Shown piece by piece: positions 3,614 to 21,420 of a DNA stretch of 34,797 nucleotides. Each line of letters opens with the position of its first letter. Positions within the stretch are counted from its first letter, which is position 1. The notes beneath the pieces are model-generated. The model was given only the letters and a program-made list of their open reading frames with translations, ran no database searches and was not told the DNA's origin. Source of the DNA: Acetobacter persici JCM 25330 (lineage in GTDB: Bacteria; Pseudomonadota; Alphaproteobacteria; Acetobacterales; Acetobacteraceae). The DNA lies in contig NZ_BAJW01000034.1 of NCBI RefSeq assembly GCF_000613905.1, forward strand, positions 1 to 34,797. Reading direction: 5' to 3'. The position numbers and the translations under genes were made by a program.

Positions 3614-4938
3614 CAGCTCATTCTACGGAGCAGCACGCTTCAGACCTCCGCGACGTCACCATGACATATCTGGGTGCACAGGGGGACGGGGCCGCCGTTC
3701 TGGCTGATGGCCAGACACTGCATGTCCCCTACACCCTGCCCGGTGAAGTTGTGCGGGTCGCCCCGACAGACTCCGGCAAATGGACCGCCACAGAAATCCT
3801 CACCCCGTCACCAGACAGAACAGAGCCTCCGTGCTCTCTATTTGGTACGTGCGGTGGCTGCACGCTTCAGCAAATGGACCGCGCAGCCTTACTGGCCTGG
3901 AAAACAAACCGGGTCATGACAGCTCTCAAAAAAGCTGGTTTTTCTGATCTGCCAGAACCGCAGGCCTTTCAGGTGCCGCCACACAGCCGCCGCCGGGCTG
4001 ATCTGGCGATGCGCAGGAATGGCAAGGAAATCCTGCTTGGCCTGCATGCCCGTGGCAGCACGGACATTATTGACCTGACAACCTGCCAGGTTCTCCATCC
4101 GGCCATCATGGACTGCCTGCCTGCGCTGCGGCAGACGTTCAGAAGTCTGGAAGGTTTATACCGGGCCGGGGACGTACGGATTAATCTGCTCGAATCGGGC
4201 CTTGATATCCTTCTGGTCACCGATGGCCCGCTTTCCACCGCAGACCGGACCAGACTCGCCAGCTTATCCGCAGAACACGCGATTCCGCGTATCTGCTGGC
4301 AGCGGCAGGGTGATCAGGGCTTGCCGGAAACCGCGGCACAGACCCGCACGGTGCACCATACGCTGGCAGGCTCCACAGTCAGTCCGCCCACCGGGGCCTT
4401 TTTTCAGGCAACAGCAGAGAGTGAGACCCTGATTCAGCAGGCCGTGCTGGATGCCTTGCCTAAGCTGAACAAGCGCGATGTGGTGATTGAGCTATATGCG
4501 GGCTGTGGCACGCTCAGCTTTCCTCTGGCCAGCCGGGCACGGGTGCAGGCCTATGAAGGCTATCCGCCTGCCGCAGCAGCCTTAAAAAACGCCTCTGGCG
4601 GAACGCGACTGGAAGTTGCCTGCCGCGACCTGAACCGCCAGCCTATTATGGCAAAAGAGCTTGCTCAGGCAGGCTGCGTGGTGCTCGACCCGCCCCACAC
4701 CGGAGCCAAGCTGCAAATGAAGCAGATCGCGATGGGGAAGCCGCGCCATCTGATTTATGTAAGCTGTAACCCGGCCGCCCTGACCAAAGATGCCGCCGCC
4801 CTGCACGCCGCAGGCTATCGCCTGAGCAGCGTGACGGTGATTGACCAGTTCCTGTGGTCAGCCGAAGTGGAGGCCGTTTGCGGCTTCAGACATGAAAGCT
4901 CTCGCCGCAGCCGCACCGGCCTTTCTCATTCGGGTTGA
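3610..4938 (+). CDS. rlmD: 23S rRNA (uracil-C5)-methyltransferase, RlmD/RumA type, with TRAM domain
   Basis: An S-adenosylmethionine-dependent RNA methyltransferase of 442 residues. An N-terminal TRAM RNA-binding domain (about 16-65) is followed by Cys75, Cys81, Cys84 ([12 protein letters not shown]) and a later Cys near 160 (TTCQVLHP), the four ligands of the RumA [4Fe-4S] cluster. The SAM site is [13 protein letters not shown], then VLDPPHTGA, then the catalytic cysteine in [12 protein letters not shown]. The RlmD assignment rests on TRAM plus cluster; other members of the U5-methyltransferase family are possible. The GTG start at 3610 overlaps the helicase stop by four bases (GTGA), pointing to translational coupling of two RNA-acting genes. 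The last residues after VCGFRH look like read-on and overlap the opposing sufA by 53 bases. Confidence 0.82.
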
Positions 4939-16099: not shown

Positions 16100-18259
16100 A
16101 TGACCACAGCAACGCCGGACACACCTCCCCGCGCGAGACATCTCGGGTTAAAAATTTTTGGTGGCATTACGCTCGCCATCCTGCTCCTGATCCTGTTCTG
16201 GTCATGGGACTGGTTTGTGCCACTGGTCAATTCCCGGGCCACAGCACTCCTGCATCGCAAAACCACAATTGCGCATCTGCATGTACATCTGGGCCGCGTC
16301 ACCACCATCACGGTGGACGACCTCAAAATTGAGCAGCCCAAAACATTTGAAAAAGAAAAAAACCAGTTTGCGCAGGCCAAAAGCCTTAGCGTATCGGTTG
16401 ATGTCTGGTCTTACCTCTGGCACCGCACTCTGCGCCTGCCGCTCATTGCGCTGGAACAGCCGAGCGCAGACATCATTGCTCTTAAAAACAACCTGAATAA
16501 CTACACGTTTACCGAAGACGGCAAACCAGCCAGCACGCCTGCACAGCCAGATACCACCAGCAAAACAAACCTGCCAGATATCGGCGAACTGCGTATTACC
16601 GACGGCACGCTGCATGTAAAATATGACCCGCTTCAGGCTGATATGCAGGTTTCTGTGCAGACAACCCCGCCTGAGGGGACCAGTCGTGGCACGCTGCGTC
16701 TGGACGCCAAAGGGCGTTATGCGCAGCAGCCCATTACCGCACGCTTTATTGGCGGCGCGTTACTCTCTTTTGTTGCGGACAAAGACCCTTACCCCGTTGA
16801 CCTCAGCGTGCAGAATGGCCCCACCAACGCCACCCTGAAAGGGGATGTGGTGCACCCGATGAGCTTTGCCGGTGCTCACCTCAAGCTGCATTTTGCAGGA
16901 CCCGATATGTCCCTGCTTTATCCGCTGACCGGCGTGCCAATCCCGCGCACTCCGGCCTACACCATTACTGGCGATCTGGATTATAGCCGCAACCACATCC
17001 TCTTCAAGGACTTTGAAGGCAGGATGGGCACCAGTGATATTGGTGGCACCATTGAGGTTGACCCACACCAGAAGCCAATGTCTCTTCAGGCCAATCTGCG
17101 CTCAAAACAGGTTAATCTGGTGGATCTCGGTGGCTTCATCGGTGCAAAGCCGGCAAAAACGGCTGCTGAGAAAAAGCAGGATGCCAAAAGCAAGACAGTC
17201 CTGCCAGATACTCCCATCAATATTCCGCGCCTGAACGCCATTAATGCGCACGTCACATATCACGGCGCACATATCGAAAATAAGCAGCTTCCGCTTGATA
17301 ATATCGACACGGAGTTTTTCATCAACAATGGTGCAATTGACCTCAAACGGCTGAATTTTGCCGTTGGGAATGGCACACTGGCCAGTTCCGCAACGCTCAA
17401 GCCGGATGGCTCTCTGTTTGACACGACCGCACGGATTGACTTTGCGCGCATTGATCTGGCCCGCATCATGCAGGCCACAGCCAAATCCAAAGCGCGTGGG
17501 ATTATTGGTGGCCACATGACCCTGAAGGCAAAGGGGAACTCCATTGCCAGCCTGATGGCGGCGGGAAATGGCGGCCTGACACTTGTGCTGGATCAGGGGG
17601 GCGATATTACCGCCATTCTGCCGGATATTATGGGGCTGCAACTGGGCAATGCCATTCTGACAGCCCTCGGCCTTCCCTCCCACACCGACATCAAATGCTT
17701 TATTGCCGATATGCCGCTGAAAAACGGCATCGTCTCCACCAACACCCTGCTGCTGGAAACCGGTGAGGCCCGCACACTTGGCCGCGGCACGATTAATTTC
17801 AAAACCAATACTCTGGACTACTCCCTGACCACCCGTGCCCAGAACCCGACCATTGCGTCTCTGCCGGGAGCGTTCAACATCACCGGCCCCATCAAATCTC
17901 CTACCGTGTTGCCGGGTGCGGAAATTCTGGGGCGCGCCGCAGCCGCAGCGGGTCTCGGCTTCGTTTTCCCGCCTCTGGCTCTGCTGCCAACCATCCAGCT
18001 TGGTGTTGGTGATGATTCCCGCTGCTCCCGCGCGGTGCAGGCTGTCAACCAGAACCCCGCCGCAGGCATTGCTCCCGGTTCACTGTCCCATGCCGCAGGC
18101 ACCAGACGCAGTGTGTCATCCACGCACGCCAGTCGTCGCCCGCAGGGCAGCACCAAAAAGGGGACGGGCAAAACCGCCGCGCCCAAACAGCACGAAGGCC
18201 GTATGACGCCAGAAGAAGTCCGTGCGGCCTGGAATGCCAAGCTACACGCGAAGCACTGA
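16100..18259 (+). CDS. AsmA family protein
   Basis: A large envelope protein of 719 residues, anchored by one N-terminal membrane helix (about 17-36, LKIFGGITLAILLLILFW) with the rest predicted periplasmic. Repeated beta-strand segments and the AsmA features LRITDGTLHVKYDPL and GRGTINFKTNTLDYSLTTRA are seen. Related proteins (AsmA, YdbH, TamB-like) are thought to carry phospholipids between the membranes; the substrate here is unknown. The C-terminus is a basic, Ala/Thr/Lys-rich tail. AGGGGAG lies about nine bases before the ATG. It converges on the AT-rich cassette. Confidence 0.85.
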   Translation: MTTATPDTPPRARHLGLKIFGGITLAILLLILFWSWDWFVPLVNSRATALLHRKTTIAHLHVHLGRVTTITVDDLKIEQPKTFEKEKNQFAQAKSLSVSVDVWSYLWHRTLRLPLIALEQPSADIIALKNNLNNYTFTEDGKPASTPAQPDTTSKTNLPDIGELRITDGTLHVKYDPLQADMQVSVQTTPPEGTSRGTLRLDAKGRYAQQPITARFIGGALLSFVADKDPYPVDLSVQNGPTNATLKGDVVHPMSFAGAHLKLHFAGPDMSLLYPLTGVPIPRTPAYTITGDLDYSRNHILFKDFEGRMGTSDIGGTIEVDPHQKPMSLQANLRSKQVNLVDLGGFIGAKPAKTAAEKKQDAKSKTVLPDTPINIPRLNAINAHVTYHGAHIENKQLPLDNIDTEFFINNGAIDLKRLNFAVGNGTLASSATLKPDGSLFDTTARIDFARIDLARIMQATAKSKARGIIGGHMTLKAKGNSIASLMAAGNGGLTLVLDQGGDITAILPDIMGLQLGNAILTALGLPSHTDIKCFIADMPLKNGIVSTNTLLLETGEARTLGRGTINFKTNTLDYSLTTRAQNPTIASLPGAFNITGPIKSPTVLPGAEILGRAAAAAGLGFVFPPLALLPTIQLGVGDDSRCSRAVQAVNQNPAAGIAPGSLSHAAGTRRSVSSTHASRRPQGSTKKGTGKTAAPKQHEGRMTPEEVRAAWNAKLHAKH

Positions 18260-18374
18260 TACGCTCACTGGAGCACCAATCCGCATTTTTCGGCGAAGAT
18301 AAAAGTCACAACCCAGCTTCTGACCTCACCTGCTTTTGCAGCCAGAACACCCGGAAGACTGCTTTTTGAGAGTG

Positions 18375-18406
18375 GCTGGAAGCTACCCCGTTCTGGAGCT
18401 TCCAGC
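18375..18406. terminator. Perfect 10-bp hairpin between AsmA gene and the AT-rich cassette
   Basis: GCTGGAAGCT (18375-18384) pairs perfectly with AGCTTCCAGC (18397-18406) around 12 bases. It lies between convergent genes, so it can serve both, but a T tract is lacking on either side. The rest of 18260-18476 holds no gene that I can see. Confidence 0.5.
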
Positions 18407-18476
18407 CTTAATACCTTACAGCGGTCCCCGACCGTAAAAGTCTTCCCTCAGCCTGTCTCTGAAGAATGATTACGTG

Positions 18477-19742
18477 TCAGGAGGCTTGCATGAGCCTGTT
18501 CACCACACCGATGAAACCCTGAATTGTCTGCGTGTCATCAAAATCTTCTGCTGAGAGAGAGGTCTTAAAATGCTCTTCCACAGCCATAATAATATTAACG
18601 TGCTTCAGAGAGTCCCACCCAGAAATCTCAGCGGGGAACTGCACGCTGTCCAGTGAAAGGTTCGGAACATTGATTTGCTGGGAAACAAGTCTCGACAACA
18701 CATGTACAGCATCGTCCTGTTCTGACTGACAATCCTGAGGAAGAGCATTGATGTTCTGGCTTGCGACTGCGCCTGAAAAGCTATCAAGCTCCGGATACAT
18801 CTGAAGGGTGTTTTTCAGAAGCTCAAGCCAGTCCGCGTCTTCGCTCCAATGCCCTTTCCAGTGCTCGTTCGGCTTTTTGATGTATCCACACCACAAATCC
18901 GCGTCCAGCTTCTCTATTGTTCCTGGCGGATGGTCCTGGTCTGCGTTCTGGACCCATAAGAGCTTGTTGGGACCATAATTTTTCAAAATATCCAGAAGCT
19001 TTTTTATATTCACGAGAGAAGATGGAACACCGCTTTTCCATATCCAGACCTTGCGGCCAAGCTCCAGTTCTCTGAGGAACTGGCTTTTCATAAATTCAAT
19101 AACGACTGAAAAATCAGGTATTTTTTGACTAATCGTTTCTTTAGGAAAATTCTTTACGAGCAGACCGGTATGCGTGGACCATTTATACATTTTATGTCGT
19201 ATCCGCCATTCAGGATCGACATTGTTCCACTCCTCTTCTGGAAGAAACATGTCCAGAAAATCCGGCTTTTCCAGTTGATGAAGGCGATATTTAAGCAACA
19301 TCATTAAATGGGGCAGACGGTCTGCACTATTTTCCGACGCCGCTGAGAAGCGCAGAAGATGAGGGTGCAAAATACCCGCGCGTTGCTGCACCAGTCCAAA
19401 CTCACAATCTTCCCCAAGGCTTTCAAAATTACTAAAAACCCGCAGACGTTCTGATAGTTTTTTGGGTGCCGCGGCAGAAGATGTTTCTGGCGCCTGAGAG
19501 GCTTTTGTCACCAGATCATCAATCGTCACCACATCGTCCAGAAGTGTATCTGGCAGTTTGTGCAAGAGCTTTTTTTGTAATGCGACAACGGTGGAGACAG
19601 TCATGTTGTTGCCCCACCCGACAATGTCCGTAAATTTCAGATCAGAGTTCCACAAGGGGATGGAATGCCCCAATGTTTCTTCCATGATGTCCTTTACGCA
19701 TGACATCATGGAGCTTTTATCCATTTCAATTTTATGCAGCAT
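18477..19742 (-). CDS. Dual acyl/peptidyl-carrier-domain protein with central domain of unknown function
   Basis: 421 residues in three parts. Residues about 7-82 form an acyl-carrier-like helical domain whose phosphopantetheine site is degenerate (GWGNNM at 42-47 in place of GWDSL). After an Ala/Ser/Pro linker, 98-330 is a domain I cannot name; its start ESLGEDCEFGLVQQ (Cys113) and KLLWVQNADQDHPPGTIE recall uncharacterised alphaproteobacterial proteins and, distantly, DUF1796-type SLGxxC proteins. About 335-421 is an intact carrier domain with SGWDSLKHVN (Ser378). I infer that the adenylating enzyme two bases upstream loads this serine arm. The ATG at 19742 is chosen for its ribosome site; a TTG at 19748 would instead overlap the upstream stop. 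Base composition is AT-rich. Confidence 0.75.
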   Translation of the reverse strand: MLHKIEMDKSSMMSCVKDIMEETLGHSIPLWNSDLKFTDIVGWGNNMTVSTVVALQKKLLHKLPDTLLDDVVTIDDLVTKASQAPETSSAAAPKKLSERLRVFSNFESLGEDCEFGLVQQRAGILHPHLLRFSAASENSADRLPHLMMLLKYRLHQLEKPDFLDMFLPEEEWNNVDPEWRIRHKMYKWSTHTGLLVKNFPKETISQKIPDFSVVIEFMKSQFLRELELGRKVWIWKSGVPSSLVNIKKLLDILKNYGPNKLLWVQNADQDHPPGTIEKLDADLWCGYIKKPNEHWKGHWSEDADWLELLKNTLQMYPELDSFSGAVASQNINALPQDCQSEQDDAVHVLSRLVSQQINVPNLSLDSVQFPAEISGWDSLKHVNIIMAVEEHFKTSLSAEDFDDTQTIQGFIGVVNRLMQAS

Positions 19743-19744
19743 CT

Positions 19745-21229
19745 TCAAATTCTCCCTTCAATTGCCGTTTCTATTTTTTTTCGATCTACTTTGCCGTTTT
19801 CATTTCTCGGAAAAACATCAATATTGATGATGATATCCGGGATTGCATAAGGCTCCAGAGACTTAGAAAGCTCTTTTCTGATAAAAGACACGTCAGGATT
19901 CTGAGATGTCTCGATAACAACAACAATTTTTTGCTGCATATAGAGAACGCAGGATTTATCGTAGCCAATAGCACCAAGGGCTCCATAAATCTCTTCTATC
20001 TCTATCCTGTAGCCTTTATGCTTGATCTGGAAATCAAAGCGCTCAGCAAAATATATTTTACCGTTAATTCTGATACCGCGATCCCCGGTGAAATACCCCA
20101 GAACCGGCCCCTTATCCGTTTGCACGTCTCGGAAGGCCGCCTGTGTGGCCTCCGGATTACCCAGATATCCATCAGCCAGTTGTGGGCCAGTGATCACAAT
20201 TTCTCCGTCGTCAGGACTTTCCCCAACCAGATACAGAGCCATGTCAGAAATTGGGTTTCCCAGGGTCACAGATGGAAAGCTGGTTTCCTGTAAGAGCGCA
20301 TCTGTAACTTTGATATGTGTCATAGAAACGGTTGTTTCTGTGGGGCCGTATGTATTGAAAATATCAGACGCTGGCAGCGTTTGTCTGAGCATACGCGCCT
20401 GACTGACCAGCAAAGCCTCACCACAAAAGACGAATTGTTTGAGTGTTTTCAGATTTTCGAAGGTCAGTTCATTAGATTGCTGCATCAGGGTGATGGTACT
20501 GGGGACAGAAATCCAAACGCTTATCTGTTTGGCGGCAATCATACGAGCTGGCCGCATCCGATCAAAAAATGTCTCTATGGGGCAAAGAGCGGCACCGGCA
20601 CACAGCCCCCCGTAAATCTCCATAACACTCAGGTCAAAAGCAATATTGGCATACTGGCTGACCCGGTCCTGAGGCGTGATGAACAAGCACTCAGACATCC
20701 ACCCGACATAATGGTCCAGTGCCAGCCGCCCTATCACGACACCTTTGGGCAACCCGGTCGAACCGGATGTAAAAATAACATAAGCAGGCCGACTGGACGG
20801 CAGGATACGGATTTCTGTGTCTTTATACGTTTCAACAGAATTCTGTATGGTTTCTATAGAAAGAGTTTCACAAACAGAACTCTCTCCGCACAACGCCTCT
20901 ATTTCTTGCTGACTTCCTATAATGACATCAGGTTTGAAAATCTCGACTATTCTCCGCTTTTTTTCCAAAGATGAGAGAAGGTTGAGCGGAGCATACGTGG
21001 CATCACTCGCAAGGGATGCAAACATAGCGGCATACGCATATTCGCCTGCGGGGGCAGCAATAAGTATTTTCCTAAAATTGTTTTTTGTAAAAACTGCTGC
21101 AAACGCCTTCGTGATTTGAAGCAACTGAGAATAATTTATACTATTTTTTGCACGGTATACTGCCGTATTTTGCGGATATTCTTCGCAAATTGTGAGAAAT
21201 TTTCTCACTGTATCATTTTCTGACATCAT
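19745..21229 (-). CDS. DltA-like amino-acid adenylation enzyme (AMP-forming)
   Basis: A stand-alone adenylation domain of 494 residues that should activate an amino acid with ATP and load it on a carrier protein. Motifs: A3 FTSGSTGLPKG (153-163), FDLSVMEIYGG with Asp199 as the amino-group ligand, FVFCGEALL with Cys269, A5 NTYGPTETT (292-300), A7 TGDRG (381-385), ERFDFQIKHKGYR, and A10 NGKVDRKK with Lys480. The FCGE cysteine matches the residue that selects D-alanine in Bacillus DltA, so D-Ala or another small residue is the likely substrate (inference). No DltB or DltD is present. ATG 21229 or 21226 follows AGGA. It is AT-rich: 18 G+C in the 60 bases from 21061. The partner is the next gene. 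Confidence 0.82.
   Translation of the reverse strand: MMSENDTVRKFLTICEEYPQNTAVYRAKNSINYSQLLQITKAFAAVFTKNNFRKILIAAPAGEYAYAAMFASLASDATYAPLNLLSSLEKKRRIVEIFKPDVIIGSQQEIEALCGESSVCETLSIETIQNSVETYKDTEIRILPSSRPAYVIFTSGSTGLPKGVVIGRLALDHYVGWMSECLFITPQDRVSQYANIAFDLSVMEIYGGLCAGAALCPIETFFDRMRPARMIAAKQISVWISVPSTITLMQQSNELTFENLKTLKQFVFCGEALLVSQARMLRQTLPASDIFNTYGPTETTVSMTHIKVTDALLQETSFPSVTLGNPISDMALYLVGESPDDGEIVITGPQLADGYLGNPEATQAAFRDVQTDKGPVLGYFTGDRGIRINGKIYFAERFDFQIKHKGYRIEIEEIYGALGAIGYDKSCVLYMQQKIVVVIETSQNPDVSFIRKELSKSLEPYAIPDIIINIDVFPRNENGKVDRKKIETAIEGRI
19751..19758 (-). promoter_or_regulatory. Ribosome binding site that fixes the carrier-protein start
   Basis: AAGGGAGA on the minus strand, eight bases before ATG 19742 and inside the end of the adenylation gene. 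It is only two bases from the TTG at 19748, which argues against that start. Confidence 0.6.
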
Positions 21230-21276
21230 TTATGTCCTGAATTTTTATGTCATAGAAAATTGAGTAATCACAATTC

Positions 21277-21289
21277 TCTATCCAATAGA
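21277..21289. promoter_or_regulatory. Short palindrome upstream of the adenylation gene
   Basis: TCTAT-CCA-ATAGA, perfect 5-base arms, about 50 bases before the start at 21229. It could be a repressor site; by length it could also arise by chance in AT-rich DNA. Confidence 0.25.
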
Positions 21290-21312
21290 CATGTGTAATT
21301 TTTGAGTATTTA

Positions 21313-21344
21313 CCGGTAAAATCTCATTTATAAGATTTTATCGG
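21313..21344. promoter_or_regulatory. Long inverted repeat in the cassette leader
   Basis: CCGGTAAAATCT (21313-21324) and AGATTTTATCGG (21333-21344) pair at 11 of 12 positions around eight bases. It lies between the fusA terminator and the adenylation gene, so it is a candidate operator or leader hairpin of the cassette. Confidence 0.4.
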
Positions 21345-21376
21345 ATATCGCGAGGCAATTTAGATCTGGTAGCGAA

Positions 21377-21420
21377 GATACAAAAAAAGCCACCTCAAGA
21401 TGAGGAGGCTTTTCTGTATC
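21377..21420 (-). terminator. Rho-independent terminator of fusA
   Basis: On the minus strand AAAAGCCTCCTCA and TGAGGTGGCTTTT pair around three bases with one mismatch, followed by a run of T. The stem can extend to GATAC/GTATC at 21377 and 21420. It lies 25 bases after the fusA stop. Confidence 0.9.

Follow-up and report, generated by a model that had tools for sequence, protein, structure and literature searches.

A DltA-like adenylation enzyme and a DUF1796-like carrier protein form a candidate glycan aminoacyltransferase cassette in Acetobacter persici

The window analyzed here, a 34,797-nucleotide stretch of Acetobacter persici JCM 25330 (contig NZ_BAJW01000034.1), contains a cassette of two minus-strand genes, here called A and C, located between an AsmA-like gene and fusA. 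Gene A (19745-21229, 494 amino acids) encodes a stand-alone, DltA-like adenylation enzyme of the ANL type, recognized by its match to PF00501 and its core motifs, and gene C (18477-19742, 421 amino acids from its ATG) encodes a protein in which a DUF1796-like domain lies between two carrier domains. The open reading frame of gene C opens with a TTG at 19748 (423 amino acids), which sets the residue numbers used below; the ATG at 19742 is the likelier start, and counted from it the junction of the two genes reads TGA-AG-ATG. PF00501 in A and one PF00550 at the C-terminal end of gene C were the sole Pfam matches above cut-off. The G+C content of the cassette is 45.4%, as compared to 59.6% in the left flank and 61.1% in the right, and the window's lowest-G+C stretch of 2753 bases begins at 18651 and falls almost wholly within the cassette. 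These results bear out an earlier note on this DNA, which had described a stand-alone amino-acid-activating enzyme two bases from a carrier protein, in a region richer in A+T than its flanks.

The same note had placed a carrier at each end of gene C, which stood insofar as both domains align with carriers, but the N-terminal one lacks the serine to which phosphopantetheine would be attached. The C-terminal carrier (residues 346-423; 18480-18713, minus strand) accounts for the PF00550 match and contains the motif GWDSLKHV with Ser380 (codon 18609-18611). The N-terminal domain (residues 11-85; 19494-19718, minus strand) is a carrier by alignment, and its motif, GWGNNMTV, has Asn47 in the serine position. 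Asn47 was present in five of the six aligned rows, namely the window and P0001-P0004 (including those of Acetobacter sp. KSO5, A. cerevisiae and A. malorum); the only row with a serine in the N-terminal carrier was P0006 (NWNSNKTV), a more distant metagenomic protein (35% identity) of the same carrier-domain-carrier layout. Because Asn47 is common to all five close copies aligned, loss of the serine does not represent recent decay. Stand-alone carriers had the serine in six of six cases (G113, G135, G057, G136, Mesorhizobium, and DltC of S. aureus). From these alignments, the N-terminal carrier is predicted to be incapable of being loaded, leaving the C-terminal carrier as the sole loadable one. 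P0006 itself is 608 amino acids long, has a serine in both carriers, and bears an extra C-terminal segment that gave the impression of a degenerate sulfotransferase, only its carriers having been matched.

The central domain (residues 106-316; 18801-19433, minus strand) had been viewed as an isolated unknown, which is no longer the case, as a family profile found matches in 88 of 347 Acetobacteraceae genomes, and in no fewer than 73 of these the match covers the domain itself. This profile also includes columns of an N-terminal domain, and 15 of the 88 genomes gave weak matches only, among them G057 and G113, which were confirmed separately. The family is marked by the motif F-E-S-L-G-x-[ND]-C-E-F-G-x-V-Q, and its alignment of 112 rows, which contains duplicate loci, was reduced to 97 distinct sequences, of which 95 keep Cys115 (codon 19404-19406, minus strand) and 91 keep His193 (codon 19170-19172). 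Pfam held no family for this domain; gene C had no PF08795 match at the 23-bit cut-off, and one of 62 alignment members matched PF08795 at E=0.11. Profile-profile comparison of the central domain with 31 DUF1796 (PF08795) sequences gave P=7e-9 over 142 columns with a bridge sequence excluded, as compared to 0.053 for the reversed profile and 0.19 or worse for ten column shuffles; with just four sequences P was 4e-4. The bridge protein, from locus L110, lies above the Pfam cut-off for DUF1796 and is matched by the central profile at 3e-7. As judged by these comparisons, the central domain is a divergent, remote relative of DUF1796, a family described by Pfam as a "putative papain-like cysteine peptidase," and a papain-type Cys/His centre is presumed for it. 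The literature searched yielded no mention of DUF1796 by name and no description tying Acetobacter, DltA, and acyl carrier protein (ACP) together, nor any recognizable account of this module. Short, single-domain members of the family also occur in other genomes of the genus (L012:8549-9175, L013:9297-10004, and L014:8388-9050), in open reading frame listings that place them among housekeeping-like genes.

Gene A contains the core motifs TSGSTG and NTYGPTE and the C-terminal Lys480. It is 31-32% identical to the annotated DltA proteins of S. aureus and Listeria, in which FDLSVM, FCGE, and NTYGPTE are found in identical form, and its Asp199 and Cys269 are invariant in a 24-row alignment of A sequences; G136, which lies outside that alignment, has alanine at the position of Cys269. 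These two residues and the shared motifs, which are taken here to line the D-alanine pocket, make alanine (D- or L-) or another small residue the best guess for the substrate of A. Membership of DltA or the Dlt system was nonetheless rejected on two results. The best NCBIfam model for gene A, DltA PRK04813, scored 300.7 bits (cut-off 476), and TIGR01734 scored 288.2 bits (cut-off 559.85); furthermore, PF03062 (MBOAT, DltB) had no match in the A. persici genome, of which the assembly is 91% complete, while the same search was positive in three of 14 control genomes. The earlier note had likewise stated that a DltB partner is absent.

Parts equivalent to those of the cassette occur together in other genera. 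Full-length relatives of A were found in six genomes beyond Acetobacter, each of another genus (G057, G113, G135, G136, G216, and G266); the matches in G134 and G325 were partial, with 31-35% identity, and were not counted as relatives. In four of these six genera, genes for a carrier and for the central domain adjoin A, as separate genes and in varied orientations. The earlier note had named a failure of the two genes to co-occur as grounds for abandoning its reading, and this check did not refute it. Viewed from the side of the central domain, a carrier was present within ~8 kb at 16 of 29 loci versus none of 20 control regions (p=2.5e-5), a ligase at nine of 29 versus one of 20, and both at five of 29 versus none of 20. 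Within 1.5 kb, a carrier or ligase was found at six of the 29 loci versus 0/34 DUF1796 loci and 0/24 AsmA loci (p=9e-4), and a ligase at three of 29, or four of 29 at a looser threshold; the corresponding count of carrier or ligase for WcbI loci was four of 16. The 29 loci were the best-scoring ones with loci returned rather than a random sample, and represent 16 genera, 11 of which supplied the 16 that bear carriers. Control regions were chosen by position, 16 from genomes of the 29 and four from G113 and G049; small open reading frames were called by script, without a gene finder, and the carrier profile drew on ten carriers, among them that of the window and one DltC. To place the A-linked copies of the domain in the family tree takes three changes of label or more, and this suggests that the central domain joined ligase-carrier modules more than once; the module label was placed only on the A-linked copies and P0006, bootstraps are unsettled, and several long branches meet. 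A Pseudochrobactrum plasmid (L221:6001-8730) carries an A relative, a carrier, and a 282-amino acid protein without a Pfam or NCBIfam match.

Several neighborhoods of these relatives concern polysaccharides. Two of 32 proteins related to C are GT61 fusions, and their position in the tree is beside the Acetobacter domains. In G049, an acyl-AMP ligase, a carrier, and a central-domain protein are grouped with two GDP-mannose dehydratase-type genes. On Mesorhizobium plasmids (L138:11986-14388 and L220:7992-10388) an A relative overlaps an ACP gene by four bases, with a GNAT protein next, and this set lies within an exopolysaccharide cluster. In G216, A adjoins two WcbI proteins, a Stealth phosphotransferase, a methyltransferase, and a glycosyltransferase; a WcbI-type polysaccharide enzyme can occupy the central-domain slot. 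An N-terminal domain of unknown kind, present in 25 of the 29 central-domain loci, also heads the G216 WcbI protein (E=1.5e-25). At L011:10994-14549, an acyl-AMP ligase, a carrier, and a TPR/central-domain protein adjoin two GDP-mannose dehydratase-type genes.

WcbI (PF18588) is a capsule enzyme that binds coenzyme A in such a way that the thiol lies at Cys14 and the acetyl carbonyl close to His201, which places a Cys/His centre around the pantetheine thiol (PMC4104973). The same study found no transferase activity with acetyl-CoA and proposes that WcbI needs a partner to present the acceptor (PMC4104973). WcbI resembles the central domain in having a Cys/His centre, in adjoining A in G216, in the N-terminal domain held in common, and in having carriers close by, but homology of the two was not supported by sequence, a profile comparison with PF18588 detecting no similarity (P=0.48). 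WcbI-type genes were found directly beside carriers in four of 16 loci (L074, L080, L081, and L082), three of which also have a ligase, and this adjacency is a possible lead on WcbI's missing partner. The donor side of WcbI may be a charged carrier protein, which differs from the published proposal of an acceptor partner and would offer an answer to the question that the structural study left open. A wider and decidedly tentative proposal is that the FESLGxxCEFG domain defines a family of carrier protein-dependent (amino)acyltransferases acting on bacterial glycans, interchangeable with WcbI, whose missing partner would often be a ligase-charged carrier, and that the A. persici cassette is its fused, compact version. 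L241:600-4420 holds an unbroken row made up of a carrier, a pair of WcbI-domain genes, and a central-domain gene.

For the cassette itself, the probable reading, held with modest confidence, is that its two genes together make a carrier-dependent aminoacyltransferase for the decoration of a glycan. This reading is favored because A, a carrier, and the central domain adjoin in four of six other genera, and because of the enrichment of carriers near the domain, the conservation of Cys115 and His193, the DUF1796 relationship, the glycan contexts, and the precedent of the butirosin enzyme BtrH described below. Its chemistry, amino acid, and acceptor can be inferred as follows. A would adenylate a small amino acid (D- or L-alanine being the likeliest) and load it as a thioester onto the phosphopantetheine of the C-terminal carrier at Ser380, while the N-terminal carrier, without its serine, would serve for docking or be a structural remnant. 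The DUF1796-like Cys/His domain would then accept the carrier's aminoacyl group, possibly through a cysteine thioester, and hand it on to a sugar, at an amino or hydroxyl group, in a polysaccharide of the envelope or the extracellular space or in a precursor of such a polysaccharide. This order of events, from loading at Ser380 through the central domain to a sugar, is the simplest use of the parts. The suggestion that the loaded residue is used by the central domain or by a protein elsewhere is thereby sharpened, with the central domain as the likely user.

A number of observations weigh against this reading. No carrier was detected in the 18 kb around A in G216, and neither a carrier nor the central domain was found near A in G266, where the gene lies 1 kb from a contig end. 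Glutamate occupies the His193 position in the closest three-gene analogues (G135, G113, and G057), and therefore not every version of the module has a Cys/His dyad; moreover, His193 is three columns off DUF1796's own histidine in the profile alignment. Despite the remote homology, the central domain differs from DUF1796 in the company it keeps, and the absence of carriers and ligases within 1.5 kb of the 34 DUF1796 loci means that a role of DUF1796 is not transferable to it. No solved structure matched the central domain, C having matched carriers and, beyond these, a few stray entries at E 0.08 or worse. In Mesorhizobium, the GNAT protein could be an alternative transferase, and the three changes in the family tree might be explained by one gain and two losses. 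Finally, no sugar gene was recognized beside the cassette in the window, where the neighbors are the AsmA-like gene and fusA, and so the acceptor is suggested by the relatives only.

The earlier note knew of no described system with this arrangement, but parallels exist in which a ligase and an ACP are combined with a papain-fold transferase, one of them known (butirosin) and one predicted. On the best reading, the cassette resembles these two and Dlt in logic and belongs to none of them. Like Dlt (DltA-DltC-DltB-DltD, which D-alanylates teichoic acid), it has a DltA-type stand-alone adenylation enzyme to charge a carrier; unlike Dlt, it has that carrier in one chain with a DUF1796-like domain and with another carrier that lacks the serine, in a genome without a DltB/MBOAT match and with an A below the DltA cut-offs. 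In butirosin biosynthesis, BtrJ is presumably the ligase and BtrI the ACP. BtrH is described as a papain-like ACP:aminoglycoside acyltransferase (PMC10318531). The butirosin route shares with the cassette the combination of a ligase, an ACP, and a presumed papain-like transferase, which in butirosin conveys an acyl group to an aminoglycoside, but BtrH_N is another papain-like family. The predicted parallel, reportedly put forward by Iyer and colleagues, involves an Atu2574-type protein, the family of which is presumably DUF1839. That study predicts that a SerRS-like amino acid:carrier protein ligase, an ACP, and the uncharacterized Atu2574-type protein together attach an amino acid to a sugar of the cell surface (PMC2922099). 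Activation of the amino acid, loading of a carrier, and transfer to a surface sugar by a linked protein are as proposed for the cassette; however, the ligase of that route is a class-II tRNA-synthetase homologue rather than an ANL enzyme, and its transferase candidate comes from a different family.

Sequence comparison thus depicts the cassette as a compact form of a ligase-carrier-transferase module, one whose candidate transferase domain lacks a Pfam model. A hypothetical domain of 73 to 88 of the 347 Acetobacteraceae genomes, or about a fifth to a quarter, thereby becomes a testable transferase family. Aminoacylated surface sugars would alter the charge of the envelope and the view that hosts and phages have of the cell. 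If the reading is true, a carrier and transferase in one chain would also be a convenient tool for attaching amino acids to sugars.

Among the alternatives, the one that survives best, though it is unlikely, is that A and C make a secreted aminoacylated or amide metabolite, such as an aminoacylated sugar, in the manner of butirosin side-chain transfer. The BtrH precedent, an MFS transporter gene just before A in G135, and the want of recognized sugar genes beside the window's cassette are consistent with it, but the family's neighborhoods are of the polysaccharide type (GT61, WcbI, Stealth, GDP-mannose dehydratase, and exopolysaccharide export) and neither A nor C has a condensation domain in Pfam. 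It is rather improbable that the central domain acts as a cysteine hydrolase, releasing or proofreading the aminoacyl carrier or trimming a peptide, with the acceptor step elsewhere: this would agree with Pfam's description of DUF1796 as a putative cysteine peptidase, but a hydrolase alone would make loading futile, and the fusions and neighborhoods point to polysaccharide assembly. A protein or phospholipid acceptor is a slightly fainter prospect, since the gene contexts in relatives favor glycans. A reduced Dlt pathway, in which A and C stand in for DltA and DltC while DltB and DltD elsewhere complete the route, would account for the DltA-like sequence and pocket motifs of A, but is very improbable in view of the negative MBOAT search, the scores of A under both DltA cut-offs, and the size of C, which is five times the length of annotated DltC (78 amino acids by coordinates) and carries another domain.

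The distribution of the cassette probably reflects horizontal spread. Gene A is present in one of 49 genomes of the genus (E 1e-60) and is 97% identical to an A. persici protein; both A and C have relatives in A. malorum and Acetobacter sp. KSO5, consistent with patchy transfer of the two genes together. The cassette proteins are 97% identical to those of near relatives and 76-80% identical to those of KSO5 and A. malorum, and the adenylation core, the serine of the C-terminal carrier, Cys115, and His193 are kept. That the cassette is a functionless remnant of such an acquisition has very little probability, as its low G+C, patchy presence, and serine-less N-terminal carrier would suit decay but both reading frames are intact and the key residues are retained at these identities. 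A plasmid-borne cassette was sought and rejected, gene C being unmatched at E 1e-5 in 72,556 plasmid records; gene A matched 24 plasmid records at E 1e-40, every one with less than 60% identity. A contig scan with gene C found no relative. A second scan, based on the A alignment, relied on patterns general to adenylation domains and returned 80 loci with 25-34% identity, which served as controls only; the central, DUF1796, or WcbI domain was found in 0/81 loci (these 80 and the Mesorhizobium locus).

The insertion site could be delimited by comparison within the genus. The AsmA-like gene was matched 24 times in 23 other genomes, and fusA ends 135-838 bases from it in six of these 24 loci, as compared to ~3.2 kb in the window; in the remaining 18, which are uninformative, no fusA appeared within the 1.5-kb flank, and some of these loci stop at a contig end. 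Relative to G009 and G033, homology ends at 18243-18244 and restarts at 21382-21383, just before the fusA-side terminator, so that 18244-21381 is absent from the AsmA-fusA spacer of the closest relatives. These ~3.1 kb were gained in the window or lost in the relatives, and the low G+C favors gain. Acquisition as a unit, as first suggested, is likely given the cassette-free site in close relatives, but the accompanying claim that hairpins bound the unit was not upheld. The terminator-like hairpin at the right edge (21392-21409, minus strand) is assigned to the fusA side, since it recurs in relatives that have no cassette. The left one, downstream of gene C at 18374-18407, is an inverted repeat of 10 bp that lacks a T-run; it was read directly and is not in the computed hairpin list. 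The empty AsmA-fusA site of a close relative, L113 (about 3640-4070), contains a short GTGCCA tandem repeat.

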